From: Colwellia sp. BRX10-3
GTDB taxonomy: Bacteria > Pseudomonadota > Gammaproteobacteria > Enterobacterales > Alteromonadaceae
DNA: 64,000 bases
Direction: 5' to 3'
Assembly (NCBI RefSeq): GCF_014077505.1
Contig: NZ_JACGWA010000001.1
Span: forward strand, 1,054,001-1,118,000
Made by a program: the position numbers and the translations under genes. Position 1 is the stretch's first letter, and the number at the start of each line of letters is the position of its first letter. Of the stretch, positions 4,455-13,429 are shown one piece after another. The notes below the pieces were generated by a model. The model ran no database searches and was not told the origin of the DNA. It saw nothing but the letters and a program-made list of their open reading frames with translations.

Positions 4455-6665
<2,211 letters not shown>

Positions 6666-7063: not shown

Positions 7064-7588
7064 CTACTTAGCGTTCGTTGTTAGTTTTTTAGATAAGTTT
7101 TCAATCACATCAGCGGCATTATAGCTCGACTCGTTAGTCATAACGCCTTTGCCCATGCGAATTTCTAAAATACTGTGCACTTCTTTGCGACTACTAGCAT
7201 TACTAAATGAAACGCCAACTTCATTCATAGGGCGGTGATGAGTTTCACAGGTTAATAAACCACAACGACGTTCAACACGCTGCTGGTGTGATAAACCTAT
7301 CGCTGAAGCTGGCTCTACTTTTTCAGACTCAACAAAGGTCTCTTTACTGGTGATAACAAACCAATCAAAGCCTTGATCTTGGGTGAGTTCAGCAGATCTT
7401 AATAAAGCATAATCTGCGGCGTCGGCAACACTAGTTGAGACACTTTTAAACTGCACACGAAACCTGTCGTTAGTAATTTTTTGCTCACTATAGCCGACTG
7501 AACCTTTATTCGCGGGGCGATAATCAGGTTTAGAAGTACAAGCTGTAACTAATAAAGTCATTAATATAAAAGTAATAAGTGTTTTCAT
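7064..7588 (-). CDS. CC0125/CC1285-type lipoprotein
   Basis: 174 residues. The signal peptide has lipobox VTAC (Cys17). The core GYSEQKITNDRFRVQFKSVS, the ADYALLRSAELTQDQGFDWFVI helix and the C-terminal ILEIRMGKG strand fit the CC0125/CC1285 lipoprotein family of unknown function. A Cys-x4-Cys pair lies near residues 110-120 (RRCGLLTCE). It is the third gene of the sigma/anti-sigma operon, starting 8 bp after the anti-sigma stop. It may therefore be part of the signal input or output of that envelope regulator. That link is inference from position. Confidence 0.75.
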   Translation of the reverse strand: MKTLITFILMTLLVTACTSKPDYRPANKGSVGYSEQKITNDRFRVQFKSVSTSVADAADYALLRSAELTQDQGFDWFVITSKETFVESEKVEPASAIGLSHQQRVERRCGLLTCETHHRPMNEVGVSFSNASSRKEVHSILEIRMGKGVMTNESSYNAADVIENLSKKLTTNAK

Positions 7589-7596
7589 TTTTCACC

Positions 7597-8352
7597 TCAG
7601 TTATTTTTAGTTGTTTGCCAATTATTCGTAATAGCTCGTTGTTCTTGAGCTCTATCCATAGCAGGTCCTTTGATCATATCGTCAATAACGCTATCAAGTT
7701 GAGCATTGTTGGACGCCGTACGATAATCTTGCAAATTTTCTGTCAAGTTTACTTTTTCTGTGAGCTTAAGCTGCCATTGCTTGTTTTCTTTACAGGCAAT
7801 ATTAACGCTAGTTTTTTGCTCGTTTGCGTGTTGAAACTGACGACAGTAATCGCCTGCATGGTTGGTAAAACTTAAATTTGCCGTTATTGCATCGCCTTGT
7901 GTTGTTATTGACATTTCACCGCTCGGCATCTGATCTAAGGCTTGCGCTACCCCTGCGGTAATTACTGACGATTGTTGCTGTGATTGCATTAGAGTTACGG
8001 TACCAACACCAAATAGCATGGCAACGCCGGCCGCTAAAGCATAATGTTTTTTTATGCTTTTATTGATACTTTTCCAATGTGATAAACTAACAACATTTTC
8101 CCCTGTTACTGAAGGTTCATCATGCGCTATTTTTTTATCAATTTTTTTAGCTAGTTGCAACAAATCATCAGCAACAGGTGTTGTATCCATAATGGCCGCA
8201 TTTTCTACCACCCAGTGATCTACCTGTGCTAATTCAGCTAAACGCATCACTAAATCGTCATCGGTTTCCAGCGCACAGCGTACTGCTTCCATCATCTCTT
8301 CGCTAAGTTCAGCATCTAAAAAAGCACTTAACATTTCATCGCTTATTTTCAT
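7597..8352 (-). CDS. Anti-sigma factor, single-pass inner membrane
   Basis: 251 residues. The N-terminal 50 residues (SDEMLSAFLDAELSEEMMEAVRCALETDDDL) have the RseA/zinc-less anti-sigma form that binds ECF sigma factors. Residues about 110-128 (YALAAGVAMLFGVGTVTLM) form one transmembrane segment, so the C-terminal part lies in the periplasm. That part contains two Cys (around 170 and 187) that could form a disulphide sensor. The start overlaps the sigma stop by 4 bp, indicating translational coupling. Function is assigned from the family-like N-terminus plus the neighbour; the periplasmic domain is not recognised. Confidence 0.85.
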   Translation of the reverse strand: MKISDEMLSAFLDAELSEEMMEAVRCALETDDDLVMRLAELAQVDHWVVENAAIMDTTPVADDLLQLAKKIDKKIAHDEPSVTGENVVSLSHWKSINKSIKKHYALAAGVAMLFGVGTVTLMQSQQQSSVITAGVAQALDQMPSGEMSITTQGDAITANLSFTNHAGDYCRQFQHANEQKTSVNIACKENKQWQLKLTEKVNLTENLQDYRTASNNAQLDSVIDDMIKGPAMDRAQEQRAITNNWQTTKNN

Positions 8353-8840
8353 GCGTCTACTCCTACTCGATAAGGTTTCATCATATCCACTAATGCGGCA
8401 CGCGCTCGCGATAACCGACTCATCACAGTACCAACCGGGATTTCCATTGATGCTGCCACCTCTTTATATGACATACCTTGTACCGCTACTAAGGATAAAA
8501 TAGCACGCTGATCGTCAGGTAAAGTATTCATCGCTACATTAACATGGCCTAGCATTTCTTTGCTGTCGAATACTTGCTGTTCATCCATGCTTTGTGATTC
8601 TTGTAATTCAGGCTTAAGCACAGCATTTTGCCTAACTTTACGAGCACGGTATTCATCAATCCATACATTACGACAAACTTTAAATGCCCATTTAGTGACA
8701 TCAACTTCAGCAGGCACGCCTTTTGTTAGTATTTTTTCCAACGTAGTTTGCACTAAATCGTCTGCATCAGCAGCATTCCCCGTTAATGAGTAGGCAAAGC
8801 GTCTTAGCATTGGTAGTATGTTTTCAATGGTTTTATGCAT
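8349..8840 (-). CDS. ECF RNA polymerase sigma factor
   Basis: 163 residues, normal for a group-IV (ECF) sigma factor. Region 2 is residues about 10-75 (LRRFAYSLTGNAADADDLVQTTLEKIL, then WAFKVCRNVWIDEYRARK, the -10 recognition part). Region 4 is about 105-155 (LPDDQRAILSLVAVQGMSYKEVAASMEIPVGTVMSRLSRARAAL, helix-turn-helix for the -35). It heads an operon with the anti-sigma factor and a lipoprotein and is divergent from the subtilase gene across 120 bp. Autoregulation from that intergenic space is likely, and the facing subtilase may be a target. Ribosome binding site AAGAGGAG precedes ATG 8840. Confidence 0.93.
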   Translation of the reverse strand: MHKTIENILPMLRRFAYSLTGNAADADDLVQTTLEKILTKGVPAEVDVTKWAFKVCRNVWIDEYRARKVRQNAVLKPELQESQSMDEQQVFDSKEMLGHVNVAMNTLPDDQRAILSLVAVQGMSYKEVAASMEIPVGTVMSRLSRARAALVDMMKPYRVGVDA

Positions 8841-8960
8841 GTTTTTACTCCTCTTACTTAAGAAGACGTGTGTAAAAGTTTTTTATTCCATAAAAGGAAA
8901 TATATTTTCAGTTGAAACGTTTTATTAACACCACACTTATTTTTGAGGTTCAAGATTAAC

Positions 8961-10301
8961 ATGAAAACCTTAGCCATTACCGCCATATTTCTTACTGCTT
9001 TTAGTACATTTATCCCTGCACAACAATTGTCTACAGGTAATGTTATTGGACAAGTTAGTGCTATAGAGCGCACAGCAAACGATATTACCCGGCCATTTGA
9101 TAGGCCGCCAGTATTAGCACCTTTTGCGCTAAGTGCTTTACCCGACATTGATAAAGTCTTTACAGAGCCTCTTAATGCTTTGCCAGCCACATTAGCAATA
9201 ACAACCACCGCAGGTAAAAGCCTTTGGTTTGATGTTGAAGTAGAAGATGGTTGGCGGGCTGTTCAAGGACAATGGCTACTTTTAGCTGACGATATAAGCA
9301 AAAAGCGCCTAATTGAACATGGTGCACAAATTATTTCAGAATCTCGATATACTGGGTTGGGCCTGGCATTGCTGCGCTTTAGCGTGCCCGCCACCTTAGA
9401 CTCTAAACAAGCGCTAAGTAATATCCTCTCAGACCAAGCAGCGCTTAGTTTAGCGAGAAACCATATTTATCAAGTACAAAATCAAGCGAGCCTACCTGCA
9501 GTAAACCTAGCCAACAAGAGTATTAAATCACTAATGAACACTCTTCCAGCATGTGATTTCGACGTAAAGGTTGGCATAGTTGATAGTGCTATTGACACAA
9601 AACATAGCGCCTTTAAAAGCGCTGATATTACTGCAAAATCCTTTTTACCTAATGACTTAAATGCATCAGTGCAACACGGTACCGTAATCGCCAGTTTATT
9701 GGTGGGGGAAAGTAAACAATTAGCACCACTTTTGCCGAGAGGTAAAGTATATTCCGCGCAAGTATTTTATCAACAATCAGATTACGCCCAGGGCGCGACG
9801 TTATCGGCCATAATCTCTGGCATAAATTGGCTGCTTGAGCAAAATGTGCCTGTGATTAATATGAGTTTGGCTGGGCCTGACAATCAAATTTTGCATAGTG
9901 TACTCAACGCCGCTATCGCAAAAGGCGCCATAGTAATTGCCGCTGCAGGCAATGAAGGTCCTGCGGCTCCGCCTATGTACCCCGCTGCTTATCAAGATGT
10001 TATTGCGGTTAGTGCAATAGACAAAAACCAGCAAGCTTATCGTTGGTCAAATCGGGGGGATTATGTTGATTACTCGGCATTAGGCGTTAATGTATTAACC
10101 GCCAAAAGCGGCCAACGTATTGGTCGGGAGTCTGGTACATCAATAGCCGCACCACAGGTTACAGCCGCGATAGCCTGTTTAACCGCAACGTATGGTAAAG
10201 ATAAGAAAAAAATATTAGATAAGCTAAATGTATTAGCCGTAGATTTGGGCCCTAAAGGCAAGGACCCTATTTACGGTATGGGCGCGATATTACGCCGCTA
10301 A
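8961..10301 (+). CDS. Secreted subtilisin-like serine peptidase (S8)
   Basis: 446 residues from ATG 8961. A TTG 18 bp upstream in the same frame is possible, but the signal peptide (MKTLAITAIFLTAFSTFIPA) and the GAGG at 8945 favour the ATG. The catalytic triad is in S8 order: Asp208 in VGIVDSAID, His239 in QHGTVIASLL, Ser394 in GTSIAAPQVTAA. The oxyanion Asn lies in AAAGNEGPAAP. Residues about 25-190 are an N-terminal extension that is probably a propeptide or inhibitor domain. There is no C-terminal sorting domain, so it is periplasmic or secreted. It is divergent from the ECF sigma operon and convergent with the barrel gene, whose stop overlaps this stop by 4 bp. Confidence 0.92.
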   Translation: MKTLAITAIFLTAFSTFIPAQQLSTGNVIGQVSAIERTANDITRPFDRPPVLAPFALSALPDIDKVFTEPLNALPATLAITTTAGKSLWFDVEVEDGWRAVQGQWLLLADDISKKRLIEHGAQIISESRYTGLGLALLRFSVPATLDSKQALSNILSDQAALSLARNHIYQVQNQASLPAVNLANKSIKSLMNTLPACDFDVKVGIVDSAIDTKHSAFKSADITAKSFLPNDLNASVQHGTVIASLLVGESKQLAPLLPRGKVYSAQVFYQQSDYAQGATLSAIISGINWLLEQNVPVINMSLAGPDNQILHSVLNAAIAKGAIVIAAAGNEGPAAPPMYPAAYQDVIAVSAIDKNQQAYRWSNRGDYVDYSALGVNVLTAKSGQRIGRESGTSIAAPQVTAAIACLTATYGKDKKKILDKLNVLAVDLGPKGKDPIYGMGAILRR

Positions 10302-11215
10302 AATTGCGCTTTAATAGACAATGAAGAGGTTGTTTGACTGTAGGTTTGGCTATCAAGTTGCGAACGGTAATCACCATATTCAAGCTTACTAACCAGCGCT
10401 AGATGCTTGTTAAATTCTAATTGCCATTGCGCTTGAAAAATATTTCTATGTTCATCTGCCTTCGATTCAAGCTGACTTGGCATATCATCATTGCTATATG
10501 CTTGAAAGTCTTTCGATTGAAAACGCCAGCCTATTGCAGCTTTTTGCGCTAAGCCAAATAATTCAAACTTTCGCGAAAGCTTAATGTTCGCCCCATAACC
10601 GCTATAATTAAATTGCGCATCAGTAGCGGTTTCCTTGTCCGCACTAACGCCGAGCATAAACATAATTTGACCGTCGTTAATAAAGTGGAACAATTCAGCA
10701 CTAGCACCATAAGCGTCGGCATTACGGTTAGACATAACCGCAAACTTTTTACTTTTGACTTTTGCGCTAGTACGCAAAAACGTTTGTGGTTGAAGAAAAG
10801 TACCTAAGTAGATGCTGGCTTGTTGAAAAGTTAAAAACGTCTCTCCATCTAGTTTGGCTTTTGCGCCATCATAGCGTAAACCTAGATCTTTTTTACGCCA
10901 TTGATAACTCGCATCAACACTAATTTGATGTAAGGCTAAGTCAAAAGCATCAAACTCTTGGTAATCTTGCTCATTATAACGATATGAAGCCGCTAATTTC
11001 GCTTTATCATTGATTTTCCAAAGCCCGGTAACCGCTGCGGTTTTTTCCAGGCCGCTATCGCCTTGTGAAGAAACCTCATCAAGCTCATCAACACTCAGTG
11101 CAGAGTTACTGATAATACCTAAAGAAACCTCACCTTTAACACTTACTTCCTCTGACGTTGCCGCCGATAGTTGCATACTTATCGCACACGCTAAACTACT
11201 TAAAATATATTTCAT
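10298..11215 (-). CDS. Predicted outer-membrane beta-barrel protein
   Basis: 305 residues. The ATG at 11215 sits 8 bp after a strong GAGGTG; the GTG at 11224 is part of that ribosome binding site and is rejected as start. Signal peptide MKYILSSLACAISMQLSAA. The mature chain is made of alternating polar/hydrophobic strands with aromatic girdle residues (for example LAASYRYNEQDY, VDASYQWRKKDLGLRYDG, AAIGWRFQSKDFQAY) and ends in Phe (SLSIKAQF), the terminal residue used for BAM recognition. I estimate 12-14 strands. The family is not recognised. It follows the repeat-protein gene and may be its transporter or anchor; that is inference. Confidence 0.75.
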   Translation of the reverse strand: MKYILSSLACAISMQLSAATSEEVSVKGEVSLGIISNSALSVDELDEVSSQGDSGLEKTAAVTGLWKINDKAKLAASYRYNEQDYQEFDAFDLALHQISVDASYQWRKKDLGLRYDGAKAKLDGETFLTFQQASIYLGTFLQPQTFLRTSAKVKSKKFAVMSNRNADAYGASAELFHFINDGQIMFMLGVSADKETATDAQFNYSGYGANIKLSRKFELFGLAQKAAIGWRFQSKDFQAYSNDDMPSQLESKADEHRNIFQAQWQLEFNKHLALVSKLEYGDYRSQLDSQTYSQTTSSLSIKAQF

Positions 11216-11230
11216 ATTAATCACCTCAAA

Positions 11231-11256
11231 TAAAAAAGCGCCAGGGCTGCTGGCGC
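11231..11256 (-). terminator. Intra-cluster terminator between repeat protein and barrel
   Basis: Perfect 7-bp stem GCGCCAG/CTGGCGC with a 5-nt loop followed on the minus strand by six Us. It ends about 16 bp before the barrel gene's start. It should end most transcripts from the repeat-protein gene and leave read-through, or a separate promoter, to supply the barrel gene. Confidence 0.88.
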
Positions 11257-11278
11257 GCTTAAAGCATTTTTTTTAAAT

Positions 11279-12328
11279 TTATAATCCAATATCTAAGTTA
11301 TTTACCAAGCTATTAGTGACTTCAGCAGCCGTTGCTGCGGCAAGCTCGGTGTTAATTTGCTCAGTAACAACATTGTTGATCTGGCTATTAACGTTTTCAG
11401 TGATTGCCGTTTGAGCATTTGAAGTGATGGCATCGGTAACATTAGCGTTCACCGTTTGCTCAATGACCTGCGTAGTTTGACCTGTAGCATCTAACGATAC
11501 GATGTTGTGCACATTACTTGATATTTGCTGAGATACTTGCGACGTGTTAGCAAATGAATTGGCGCTATCAACACTAGGATTTAGGGCCAAATTTTCAGGT
11601 GTTGTCATCGTTTCACTAGGGACAACTTCTTCAGTTTCTTCTGCTGTGCTATTTTCTGGTAATACTAACAAATTTGCACTTGTTGTTTGGGTAAGTGACT
11701 GACTCGAGTTTGATGCTGTATCTACTAAGGTATTGTTTCCGGAACTTCCTGAAAGTTGAGTGGCTACTGCTGAGGTGTTAACAAAAGAAGTAGCGCTTTC
11801 AATATTTGGATTTAATGCGGCAAGTTCAGGTGTTGCTAACGCTTCGTTTGGCGCGATTTCACCAGACTCTTCTGGTGTTTCACTTTCGGGTAACGTTGGA
11901 AGTGCTATGCTTGTTACTTGATTAAGTGACTGAGCTAAGGTTACTGTCGCTCCAGAGATAACACTGATACTCTCGCCAACATTATTTGATAGGCTAGTGT
12001 TCAACTCACTATTGTTATCTAAAACGCTTGCAGTACCGATATTCTTTGCGTTACTCGACGGCTGTTCTTCAGTTTCGCTAGGCACAGACTCTGAAGCATT
12101 CGCGTCTTCACTATTAGCCTTAACTTTAGTATCGCTTTCAACTGAAGTATCAGATTGTGTCGACATTTGAGTTGATTTATCAGAACTATCTACTTGCTGA
12201 GAAACTTTAGTTTCATGATTAATTTGGGTGTTTTGGCTAATTTCAATATCAGCGGCTTGCGCGATACTTACCCAACAACTCATACCACTTAATACCAATA
12301 CTTGTGCAATTTTATTTAATTTAGTCAT
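11279..12328 (-). CDS. Exported Ser/Thr/Asn-rich repeat protein, function unknown
   Basis: 349 residues with a signal peptide cut near AQAADIE (about residue 26). The mature chain is low in aromatics and lysine, contains no cysteine, and is rich in Ser, Thr, Asn, Gln and Glu. Two repeats of about 78 residues are clear: about 131-208 and 209-286. Each has LPE-S/N-E-T-E/A-E-E, then A-L-NP-N/S-I/V-E/D-S-A, then FVNTS or FANTS, then Q-L/I-S. After them comes a Thr/Asn/Gln-rich tail with short ENVNSQINNVV-like units. No sortase, autotransporter or type I signal is seen. Composition and repeats suggest a surface fibre or adhesin-like protein. No family is recognised. Confidence 0.7.
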   Translation of the reverse strand: MTKLNKIAQVLVLSGMSCWVSIAQAADIEISQNTQINHETKVSQQVDSSDKSTQMSTQSDTSVESDTKVKANSEDANASESVPSETEEQPSSNAKNIGTASVLDNNSELNTSLSNNVGESISVISGATVTLAQSLNQVTSIALPTLPESETPEESGEIAPNEALATPELAALNPNIESATSFVNTSAVATQLSGSSGNNTLVDTASNSSQSLTQTTSANLLVLPENSTAEETEEVVPSETMTTPENLALNPSVDSANSFANTSQVSQQISSNVHNIVSLDATGQTTQVIEQTVNANVTDAITSNAQTAITENVNSQINNVVTEQINTELAAATAAEVTNSLVNNLDIGL

Positions 12329-12677
12329 GTTTGCTTCCTCTAATGTCTGTTTATGTTAATGACACTGAGATAACGGCTAACGTGTGATATTTATTCCAAA
12401 TTAATTTAAAAATATTTCAACTTAATTTTTTATTAATATATTTCAATAACTAAAAGTAAAAAATAAACTATTAAGATTTAAGAAATCAGTACCAGAAAGT
12501 ATTCAACATTTAATCAGTCTTTTTAAGCTTTGGTTGCTAGTTAGAAAATTTAACCAACAAGGGGTGATGTGTGGCGTTTTCATCGATGAAAACGCAATTG
12601 TCACTCTTTCAGCTGACATTGAGGGTTTGTTGATATCAGAAGCTATATTCTTAAATGGATTGAATAACAATCTTAAA

Positions 12678-12820: not shown

Positions 12821-13243
12821 TTAACAATCGTCATCTTCAGCGTCTACGCCTTCTTTTGCTTCTTCACAAGCATCTTCAATGGCGTTACCTGCGTCTTTTT
12901 TCATTCCACCAAGTTTATCACTAACACTGGTTTTCATTTCATCTAACTTGTGACCCGCATCGCTTGCCATTTCACTTACTTTTTCGCCAGCACCTTCAAT
13001 TGCTTCACCGGCATCGTCTTTCATTTCACTTGCTTTTTCGCCAGCGGCTTCAAGTGCGTTACCGGCATCTTTTTTCATTTCACTTATTTTATCACCAGCA
13101 TCTTTAGCCATATTGCCAGCACCTTTAACTGCTTCTTCAACTTTGTCACCCGCTTTTTCTGCATCTTTTTCACTACAAGCTGTTAAGCCAAACATTGCGA
13201 CAAAGAAAATAAGTGAGGTTGATAATTTTTTAATAAAAGTCAT
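12821..13243 (-). CDS. LEA-like repeat lipoprotein
   Basis: 140 residues from ATG 13243, which is preceded by AGGG. A longer frame to 13285 would add 14 residues ahead of the signal peptide and runs into the upstream DUF1328 gene, so it is rejected. The lipobox is LTAC (Cys23). The rest is an amphipathic helix of about 11-residue units (AGEKASEMKDD, AGEAIEGAGEKVSEMASD, and so on) like LEA group 3 or apolipoprotein proteins associated with desiccation and osmotic stress. It ends in EDDDC, a free C-terminal cysteine. It is the second gene of an operon 10 bp after a DUF1328 gene. Confidence 0.75.
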   Translation of the reverse strand: MTFIKKLSTSLIFFVAMFGLTACSEKDAEKAGDKVEEAVKGAGNMAKDAGDKISEMKKDAGNALEAAGEKASEMKDDAGEAIEGAGEKVSEMASDAGHKLDEMKTSVSDKLGGMKKDAGNAIEDACEEAKEGVDAEDDDC

Positions 13244-13253
13244 GTGTTTTTCC

Positions 13254-13429
13254 CTAAATTTTTGGTGGTTTACCACGAATTGCATTGGCGATTAATGAGA
13301 TAATCAACAGCACAAAGATAATAAAAAATATAGTTTTTGCAATACCAACTGCTGCGCCAGCGATACCACCAAAACCGAATATTGCAGCAATAATTGCAAC
13401 AACTAAAAAAGTAAGTGCCAGCTTAACAT
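13254..13429 (-). pseudogene. DUF1328 small membrane protein, frameshifted
   Basis: The minus strand from ATG 13429 reads MLSWHLLF and then stops. A +1 change of frame at the CC at 13418-13419 gives [21 protein letters not shown], followed by two hydrophobic segments and IRGKPPKI, ending at 13254. This is a complete DUF1328 (YtjA-like) protein of about 58 residues. The usual start of the family is MLxWALTFLVV, so one G of an expected GGG on the coding strand is missing. Either a real 1-bp deletion or a homopolymer sequencing error. It leads the LEA-like lipoprotein gene. Confidence 0.8.

Follow-up and report, generated by a model that had tools for sequence, protein, structure and literature searches.

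In RpoE-RseA, a sigma factor and a single-span anti-sigma factor are encoded in one operon, with a promoter of the GGAA...CGT type before the sigma factor gene. The Fap operon encodes a repeat-bearing exported protein, a barrel and a C39 peptidase. The outer-membrane barrel of the Slam proteins, or type XI secretion system (T11SS; DUF560, SlipAM PF04575), is described as having 14 strands (PMC8406197). Here we analyze a six-gene module that resembles each of these systems in part. It lies at positions 7064 to 12328 of a 64,000-nucleotide stretch of DNA from Colwellia sp. BRX10-3 (contig NZ_JACGWA010000001.1, positions 1,054,001 to 1,118,000; "the window") and encodes an extracytoplasmic function (ECF) sigma factor, an anti-sigma factor, a lipoprotein, an S8 peptidase, an outer-membrane barrel and an exported repeat protein. 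We propose, with a probability of about one-half, that the module is an ECF sigma regulon complete in itself, which exports the repeat protein and displays it via the outer membrane.

Like RpoE-RseA, the module has a sigma and single-span anti-sigma operon with a promoter motif before the sigma gene; unlike RpoE-RseA, its target set is apparently local, confined to the module's three transcription units (sigma operon, protease gene and repeat-protein/barrel operon). It shares with T11SS/Slam a 14-stranded barrel, profile similarity over the whole barrel and a candidate product gene that adjoins the barrel gene. It differs in that the barrel lacks an N-terminal tetratricopeptide repeat (TPR) domain, in that the candidate product, whose role as cargo we infer, lacks both a C-terminal 8-stranded barrel domain and an evident lipid anchor, and in being linked to genes for an ECF sigma factor and for an S8 protease. 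Subtilases have been reported in ECF54 contexts without an anti-sigma factor (PMC8999054), an arrangement unlike that of the module. As in Fap, genes for a repeat-bearing exported protein, a barrel and a protease stand together, but the module has a subtilase rather than a C39 peptidase, a Slam-like barrel, predicted helical repeats and an ECF sigma factor of its own. An earlier note on this DNA had drawn a loose analogy to Fap amyloid operons, which these differences leave unsupported; the model of the repeat protein, of low confidence except at the C-terminal end, places a helix there and shows no beta fold of the cross-beta repeat kind. An exact-term search of openly licensed PMC text found no description of the module among the titles and abstract openings listed. 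Its features in the window are as follows.

7064-7588, minus strand: exported lipoprotein of the CC0125/CC1285 family (NCBIfam NF047637, E 1.6e-42); third gene of the sigma operon.
7597-8352, minus strand: anti-sigma factor with an N-terminal LSAFLDAEL domain, one hydrophobic segment and a presumed periplasmic domain.
8349-8840, minus strand: ECF sigma factor (Sigma70_r4_2, E 8.9e-17; Sigma70_r2, E 3.9e-11).
8866-8889, minus strand: putative sigma-operon promoter, GGAA-N17-CGT.
8896-8920, plus strand: putative S8 promoter, GGAA-N18-CGT.
8961-10301, plus strand: exported S8 peptidase with an N-terminal prosegment (Pfam Peptidase_S8, E 4.2e-33).
10298-11215, minus strand: 14-stranded outer-membrane barrel, Slam-like, without a TPR domain (open reading frame [ORF] listed as 10298-11224).
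11238-11256, minus strand: terminator-like hairpin and T run between the repeat-protein and barrel genes.
11279-12328, minus strand: exported repeat protein with a signal peptide, two repeats of ~77 residues and C-terminal four-residue V/I/L repeats.
12373-12397, minus strand: putative promoter of the repeat-protein/barrel operon, GGAA-N18-CGT.

We re-checked the six ORFs of the window and assigned families using Pfam and NCBIfam. All six were present where the earlier note had placed them, including the ECF sigma factor, membrane anti-sigma factor, lipoprotein and secreted S8 peptidase; the 4-bp overlap of the S8 and barrel stop codons (10298-10301) and the C-terminal Phe of the barrel were likewise as described. 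The sigma and anti-sigma genes also overlap. The barrel most likely starts at ATG 11215 rather than at the listed GTG 11224, because the latter sits within the likely ribosome-binding sequence; the S8 gene most likely starts at ATG 8961, not TTG 8943. In the S8 peptidase, D208, H239 and S394, which we take to be catalytic, do not vary among the 20 sequences compared, giving the Asp-His-Ser triad of subtilases. Two Cys residues of the anti-sigma factor (170 and 187) are invariant in all 20 aligned sequences and belong to a C-terminal domain that is presumably periplasmic. The window anti-sigma protein scored under Pfam cutoffs; at an E value of ≤0.1, its relatives matched DUF3379 (12/20; best, 1.4e-7), zf-HC2 (12/20), RseA_N (7/20) and DUF5061 (3/20). 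The DUF5061 matches, weak and found in those 3 of 20 members, suggest a possible kinship of the C-terminal domain (CR...C...W) with the 17 kDa common antigen family. A predicted cognate sigma/anti-sigma pair and a putative promoter motif before the sigma gene, the features by which an ECF sigma/anti-sigma regulon is recognized, were both found.

Using the window barrel as a single query, which could miss very divergent barrels, we detected the barrel in 23 of 118 genomes of the family. A full-length anti-sigma factor (E 5e-43 or better) occurred in the same 23 genomes. At an E value of ≤0.001, anti-sigma matches extended to 79 of the 118 genomes, the 23 being the near full-length ones; the best of the weaker matches (3.6e-12) covered model positions 1 to 125 of 240. 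Two further genomes of the window's genus had neither the barrel nor a full-length anti-sigma factor, and the distribution of the module is therefore patchy. The S8, sigma and anti-sigma genes were within about 1.2 kb of the barrel gene in 19 of 20 loci, and the 20th locus ends at a contig edge. The lipoprotein gene adjoined the anti-sigma gene in 14 of 20 relatives and in 38 of 56 barrel-bearing loci. A short convergent S8/barrel junction (gap, -32 to +59) was found in 15 of 19 relatives; in the other four the gap was 651 to 1190 bp, and in one locus (L038) the genes were in tandem.

A search of named genomes seeded with the S8 peptidase yielded 66 loci, 46 with the barrel. Among the 20 barrel-less loci, some of whose contigs end too early for their neighbors to be judged, 15 had the sigma and anti-sigma genes beside the S8 gene and five had the S8 gene alone; 14 of the 20 had Alphaproteobacterial record titles. 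Because the 15 loci keep sigma and anti-sigma beside S8, these three genes look like an older core. In a set of 14 barrel-less loci (L105-L119 minus L113), the S8 gene stood beside sigma and anti-sigma in 11; nearly all titles were Alphaproteobacterial (Rhizobiaceae, Devosia, Novosphingobium and others), and several S8 N termini consisted of Asp/Gly/Ser-rich low-complexity sequence. Records with the module bore the titles Colwellia, Pseudoalteromonas, Marinobacter, Cellvibrio, Alteromonas, Rheinheimera and others, including some Alphaproteobacteria. Pairwise-distance correlations, which ignore species phylogeny, were highest for S8 and barrel (0.87; other pairs, 0.79 to 0.84). The identical sets of 23 genomes and the presence of the barrel in 46 of 66 S8-seeded loci rule out a chance neighborhood. 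Co-occurrence in related genomes, on which the earlier note had staked its proposal, was borne out by the shared 23 genomes and by a common motif before all three transcription units. We conclude that the six genes form one conserved unit, which is probably self-regulated.

That motif, GGAA-N17/18-CGT, precedes each of the three transcription units of the window. For comparison, we used 71 of 87 loci (the window and L036-L121), after removing 16 in which S8 or sigma was missing or the last 120 S8 residues were duplicates; the set still contains close species. Among the barrel-bearing loci, the motif was found before sigma in 54 of 56, before S8 in 34 of 56 and before the repeat-protein gene in 39 of 44 (40 of 45 counting L055). 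The last count varies with the stretch searched, some ORF starts being overextended: it was 29 of 45 when 12 extra bases before the ORF start were required and 35 of 45 when the search was confined to upstream sequence, and it rose to 40 of 45 when 100 bases of the ORF were included. At control genes the motif was rare (barrel, 3/56; anti-sigma, 1/55; lipoprotein, 4/38), and shuffled means, from shuffles that, like those used for the hairpin below, preserve single-base composition only, were 1.2 to 2.6. Spacing peaked sharply at 17 and 18 across the 71 loci, with other gaps from 8 to 29 each found in 0 to 3 loci per unit. Forty-four loci have all three units; the motif stood at every one of them in 27, at two in 15 and at one in two. 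In the repeat-protein gene promoters (29 sites), the left half was mostly GGAATAAA and the right half CGTTA. Since all three units share the motif, they are probably transcribed by the sigma factor of the module. When four whole genomes were scanned with a strict form of the promoter, 16 and 19 sites were found, compared with 11 and 19 for a backward-pattern control; five and three of the sites were inside the locus, leaving no excess outside it (11 versus 11 and 16 versus 19). Because these scans show no excess elsewhere, the sigma factor looks dedicated to its own locus. The same result argues against a global regulon, although weak or variant sites would escape such scans.

A terminator-like hairpin at the repeat-protein/barrel junction was present in 28 of 43 loci, including the window, versus 0.15 expected from shuffles, and its sequence mostly differs from locus to locus. 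A terminator scan of the whole region found eight sites versus 6.6 in shuffles, and the single window site is not significant alone; the claim therefore rests on conservation. The repeat-protein and barrel genes are probably in one operon. Since the hairpin separates them, its conservation suggests that the repeat protein is produced in excess over the barrel.

The AlphaFold2 model of the barrel has 14 strands (pLDDT, 88.5), the first at residue 27. The closest solved folds were CymA (Z 22.1; root mean square deviation, 3.2 over 267 residues; 9% identity) and OmpG (Z 20.5; 6% identity). The barrel shares the 14-stranded fold with these proteins but differs in that its gene probably shares an operon with that of an exported repeat protein. 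A PDB sequence search with the barrel profile gave nothing at an E value of ≤1. At an E value of ≤0.1, SlipAM matched five of 21 barrel members; relative to the Pfam cutoff of 22 bits, L054 (34.7 bits) and L113 (29.8 bits) were above and L079 (18.4 bits) was below. In a sample of the class, the barrel profile matched 45 of 274 genomes, two strongly and the rest weakly. Fourteen of the weakly matching relatives were in ORFs of 421 to 525 amino acids (median for the barrel family, 310). We scanned ten of the larger relatives: nine had TPR families at an E value of ≤0.01, SlipAM was above its cutoff in two and below it in one, and TPR_Slam was below cutoff in four. An hhalign comparison with 12 TPR-plus-barrel relatives aligned the whole barrel (99.8%; E 1.4e-27); this set was picked from barrel-profile matches, so the result is not an independent discovery. 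We interpret the barrel as related to those of Slam/T11SS but without their TPR domain. We did not file it as a T11SS, because two defining features, a TPR domain and a cargo barrel domain, are absent. In NilB, deletion of the whole N-terminal domain is reported to have relieved the defects of smaller TPR deletions (PMC8406197), and on that precedent a TPR-less barrel could still be functional. In genome G134, which lies outside the family, a barrel relative (L154:7451-8359) has a small Ala/Asp-rich ORF upstream, and sigma, anti-sigma and S8 genes were not detected within the 18 kb covered.

The two repeats of about 78 residues that the earlier note saw in the repeat protein are real: the best ungapped self-diagonal was at lag 77, with a score of 200 versus a maximum of 86 in 200 shuffles. 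The hallmark of the family is not this repeat but a C-terminal four-residue period. In the window protein, four-residue V/I/L repeats extend from about residue 265 to 349, and the last residues are DIGL. We scored V/I/L/M spacing in the last 100 residues of 44 proteins at the repeat-protein position (including L055 and excluding the window). The mean z was 5.0 at lag 4 and 4.6 at lag 8, and negative at lags 2, 3, 5, 6 and 7; z exceeded 3 at lag 4 in 41 of the 44. Tetrad runs were 8 to 27 long (window, 14) versus 3.3 in shuffles. On an alpha helix, an exact four-residue period makes a hydrophobic stripe that turns slowly, unlike that of ordinary coiled coils. The AlphaFold model of the window protein (pLDDT, 54.5 overall) has two low-confidence N-terminal strands and a C-terminal helix at residues 256 to 348, in which a 10-residue block near the end reaches a pLDDT of 90. 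Relatives are 13 to 54% identical to the window protein, with consensus mainly at both ends; they are rich in small polar residues and nearly devoid of Cys, Trp and Tyr, and the last residue is Leu or Ile in 34 of 43. The window protein matched no Pfam or NCBIfam family, and single relatives gave isolated sub-threshold-like matches only. A PDB sequence search with the repeat-protein profile gave nothing at an E value of ≤1; of the single proteins searched, one gave two matches (E 0.21 and 0.54) and another none. The four-residue-period protein thus has no convincing match to a known family or solved structure. The earlier note had recognized no function for the three exported proteins; in part this does not hold, as the barrel falls in the Slam-like group.

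After correction, the repeat-protein gene was present in 45 of 56 barrel-bearing loci. The lag-4 detector had wrongly counted L055 and missed L044, which has a repeat protein by eye; both have the motif. At the repeat protein's position, L055 encodes a large exported-looking protein (L055:5784-8333), presumably DUF5666-like, with the same promoter motif. Some loci without the repeat protein have neighbors that we take to be DUF1800 or DUF5666 proteins. In five of the 11 loci without a repeat protein, the S8 N terminus itself carries four-residue repeats, such as DDVE or EEDV; no S8 lag-4 signal was found in the other six. Among repeat-protein-bearing loci, S8 had a lag-4 z of >3 in two of 43 (5/11 versus 2/43; Fisher P, 0.0025, a post hoc comparison in which three of the five loci look closely related). 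Further S8 repeats were EDEI in L152 and L153 and QVTE in L101. The EDEI repeats of L152 and L153 are long, a repeat-protein gene was not seen in either locus, and in L152 two large ORFs (677 and 472 amino acids) adjoin the barrel. The four-residue segment may thus be exchangeable, residing in a protein of its own in some loci and in the protease in others.

Two further genes of the window flank the module. The gene at 4494-6665, which we take to be KatG-type, adjoins the module, and a related gene lies near the module in L036 and L045, possibly incidentally. The small Ala-rich, lipoprotein-like ORF at 12821-13285 has weak apolipoprotein and alanine-zipper matches. A relative was flagged in L041 alone among 20 neighborhoods, and this ORF is therefore outside the conserved module.

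Under the reading that we favor, the anti-sigma factor would keep the sigma factor at the inner membrane, and its periplasmic two-Cys domain, perhaps with the lipoprotein, would sense an envelope cue. Freed sigma factor would then act at the GGAA-N17/18-CGT promoters and transcribe all three units, its own operon among them, a step for which the comparative evidence is strong. The hairpin after the repeat-protein gene would permit an excess of repeat protein over barrel. The barrel may move the repeat protein across the outer membrane, or anchor it there, via the C-terminal four-residue-period segment, and the S8 peptidase may mature, trim or shed the product. Sequence comparison shows the module itself, the shared promoter motif, the hairpin, the kinship of the barrel and the four-residue period. 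The earlier note had proposed a regulated envelope module for surface display or processing; the conserved, regulated module stands, as does the association of repeat protein, barrel and protease within it, and display or processing is plausible.

Several observations weigh against this reading. Export, surface location, cleavage and signal sensing are steps that we infer. In 22 of 56 loci no motif precedes the S8 gene, and in the 15 barrel-less loci of the promoter comparison the motif precedes sigma in six, S8 in nine and none of three lipoprotein genes, but also anti-sigma in four. In the window, GGAA-N17/18-CGT alone is at chance level (11 versus 8.4 expected), and the promoter claim therefore rests on conservation. 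Fifteen of 43 repeat-protein/barrel junctions lack a hairpin under the rule used. The top solved folds, CymA and OmpG, are ordinary porins; the window barrel has no SlipAM match; BBP2_2 matched more members (11/21) than SlipAM did; and two T11SS hallmarks, the TPR domain and the beta-barrel cargo domain, are missing. Finally, 11 of 56 barrel-bearing loci have no repeat protein, and the barrel therefore has other work there.

A rival suggestion is that the S8 peptidase is the main cargo of the barrel, the module yielding a surface protease under sigma control with the repeat protein as an accessory (anchor, chaperone or decoy). Barrel and S8 remain together where the repeat protein is absent, several such S8 N termini carry DDVE, EEDV or EDEI repeats, and the S8-barrel distance correlation is the highest; S8 may also be the oldest partner, since it stays with sigma and anti-sigma in 15 of 20 barrel-less loci. 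We nevertheless consider this unlikely, as clear S8 repeats occur in just two of the 43 repeat-protein-bearing loci (z > 3), so that a shared signal is not evident, and as barrel and repeat protein apparently share an operon while S8 has its own promoter motif. That S8 stands beside sigma and anti-sigma in 15 loci without the barrel could also be cited for a mainly regulatory role, in which S8 is the site-1 protease that cleaves the anti-sigma factor and barrel and repeat protein report on the state of the outer membrane. The sigma-type motif before S8 in 34 of 56 loci fits an output of the regulon at least equally well, and we regard the regulatory role as very improbable.

The porin folds, the weak likeness of the anti-sigma family to envelope-stress anti-sigma factors (RseA_N, 7/20) and the family lipoprotein within the sigma operon would suit an envelope-stress or quality-control regulon, in which the barrel is a porin through which nothing is secreted, S8 clears away exported proteins that are damaged, and the repeat protein has a protective or spacer role in the periplasm. 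The whole-genome counts outside the locus are unlike those of a broad stress regulon, however, and proteins related to the barrel match TPR_Slam or SlipAM; we judge this explanation quite unlikely. A functional amyloid fiber system would account for an exported repeat protein that is rich in small polar residues, has almost no Cys or aromatic residues, is probably in excess of its channel and has two N-terminal strands, albeit of low confidence, in its model. It is improbable given that the conserved C-terminal repeat is modeled as a helix with its confident block, that family scans matched no amyloid family and that the barrel is Slam-like. Within the export and display reading, we tentatively offer a specific and undescribed export route, which is possible but not probable: the TPR-less Slam-like barrel would recognize helices with a strict four-residue hydrophobic period, an element carried by a separate, overproduced surface protein in most species and elsewhere by an N-terminal extension of S8, with a single dedicated ECF sigma factor in control of the whole.

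With its predicted promoters, the module amounts to a testable regulon, found repeatedly in marine Gammaproteobacteria and in some Alphaproteobacteria, and it brings a Slam-like barrel together with an ECF sigma factor. In the main text of a study of T11SS (PMC12282271), "sigma factor" does not occur and "protease" occurs twice. That study describes marine cluster 3 T11SS barrels as rarely lying beside a known cargo domain and raises the possibility of other targeting domains. The four-residue-period protein is a candidate answer to the question of what marine T11SS-like barrels may carry where the known cargo domain is missing.

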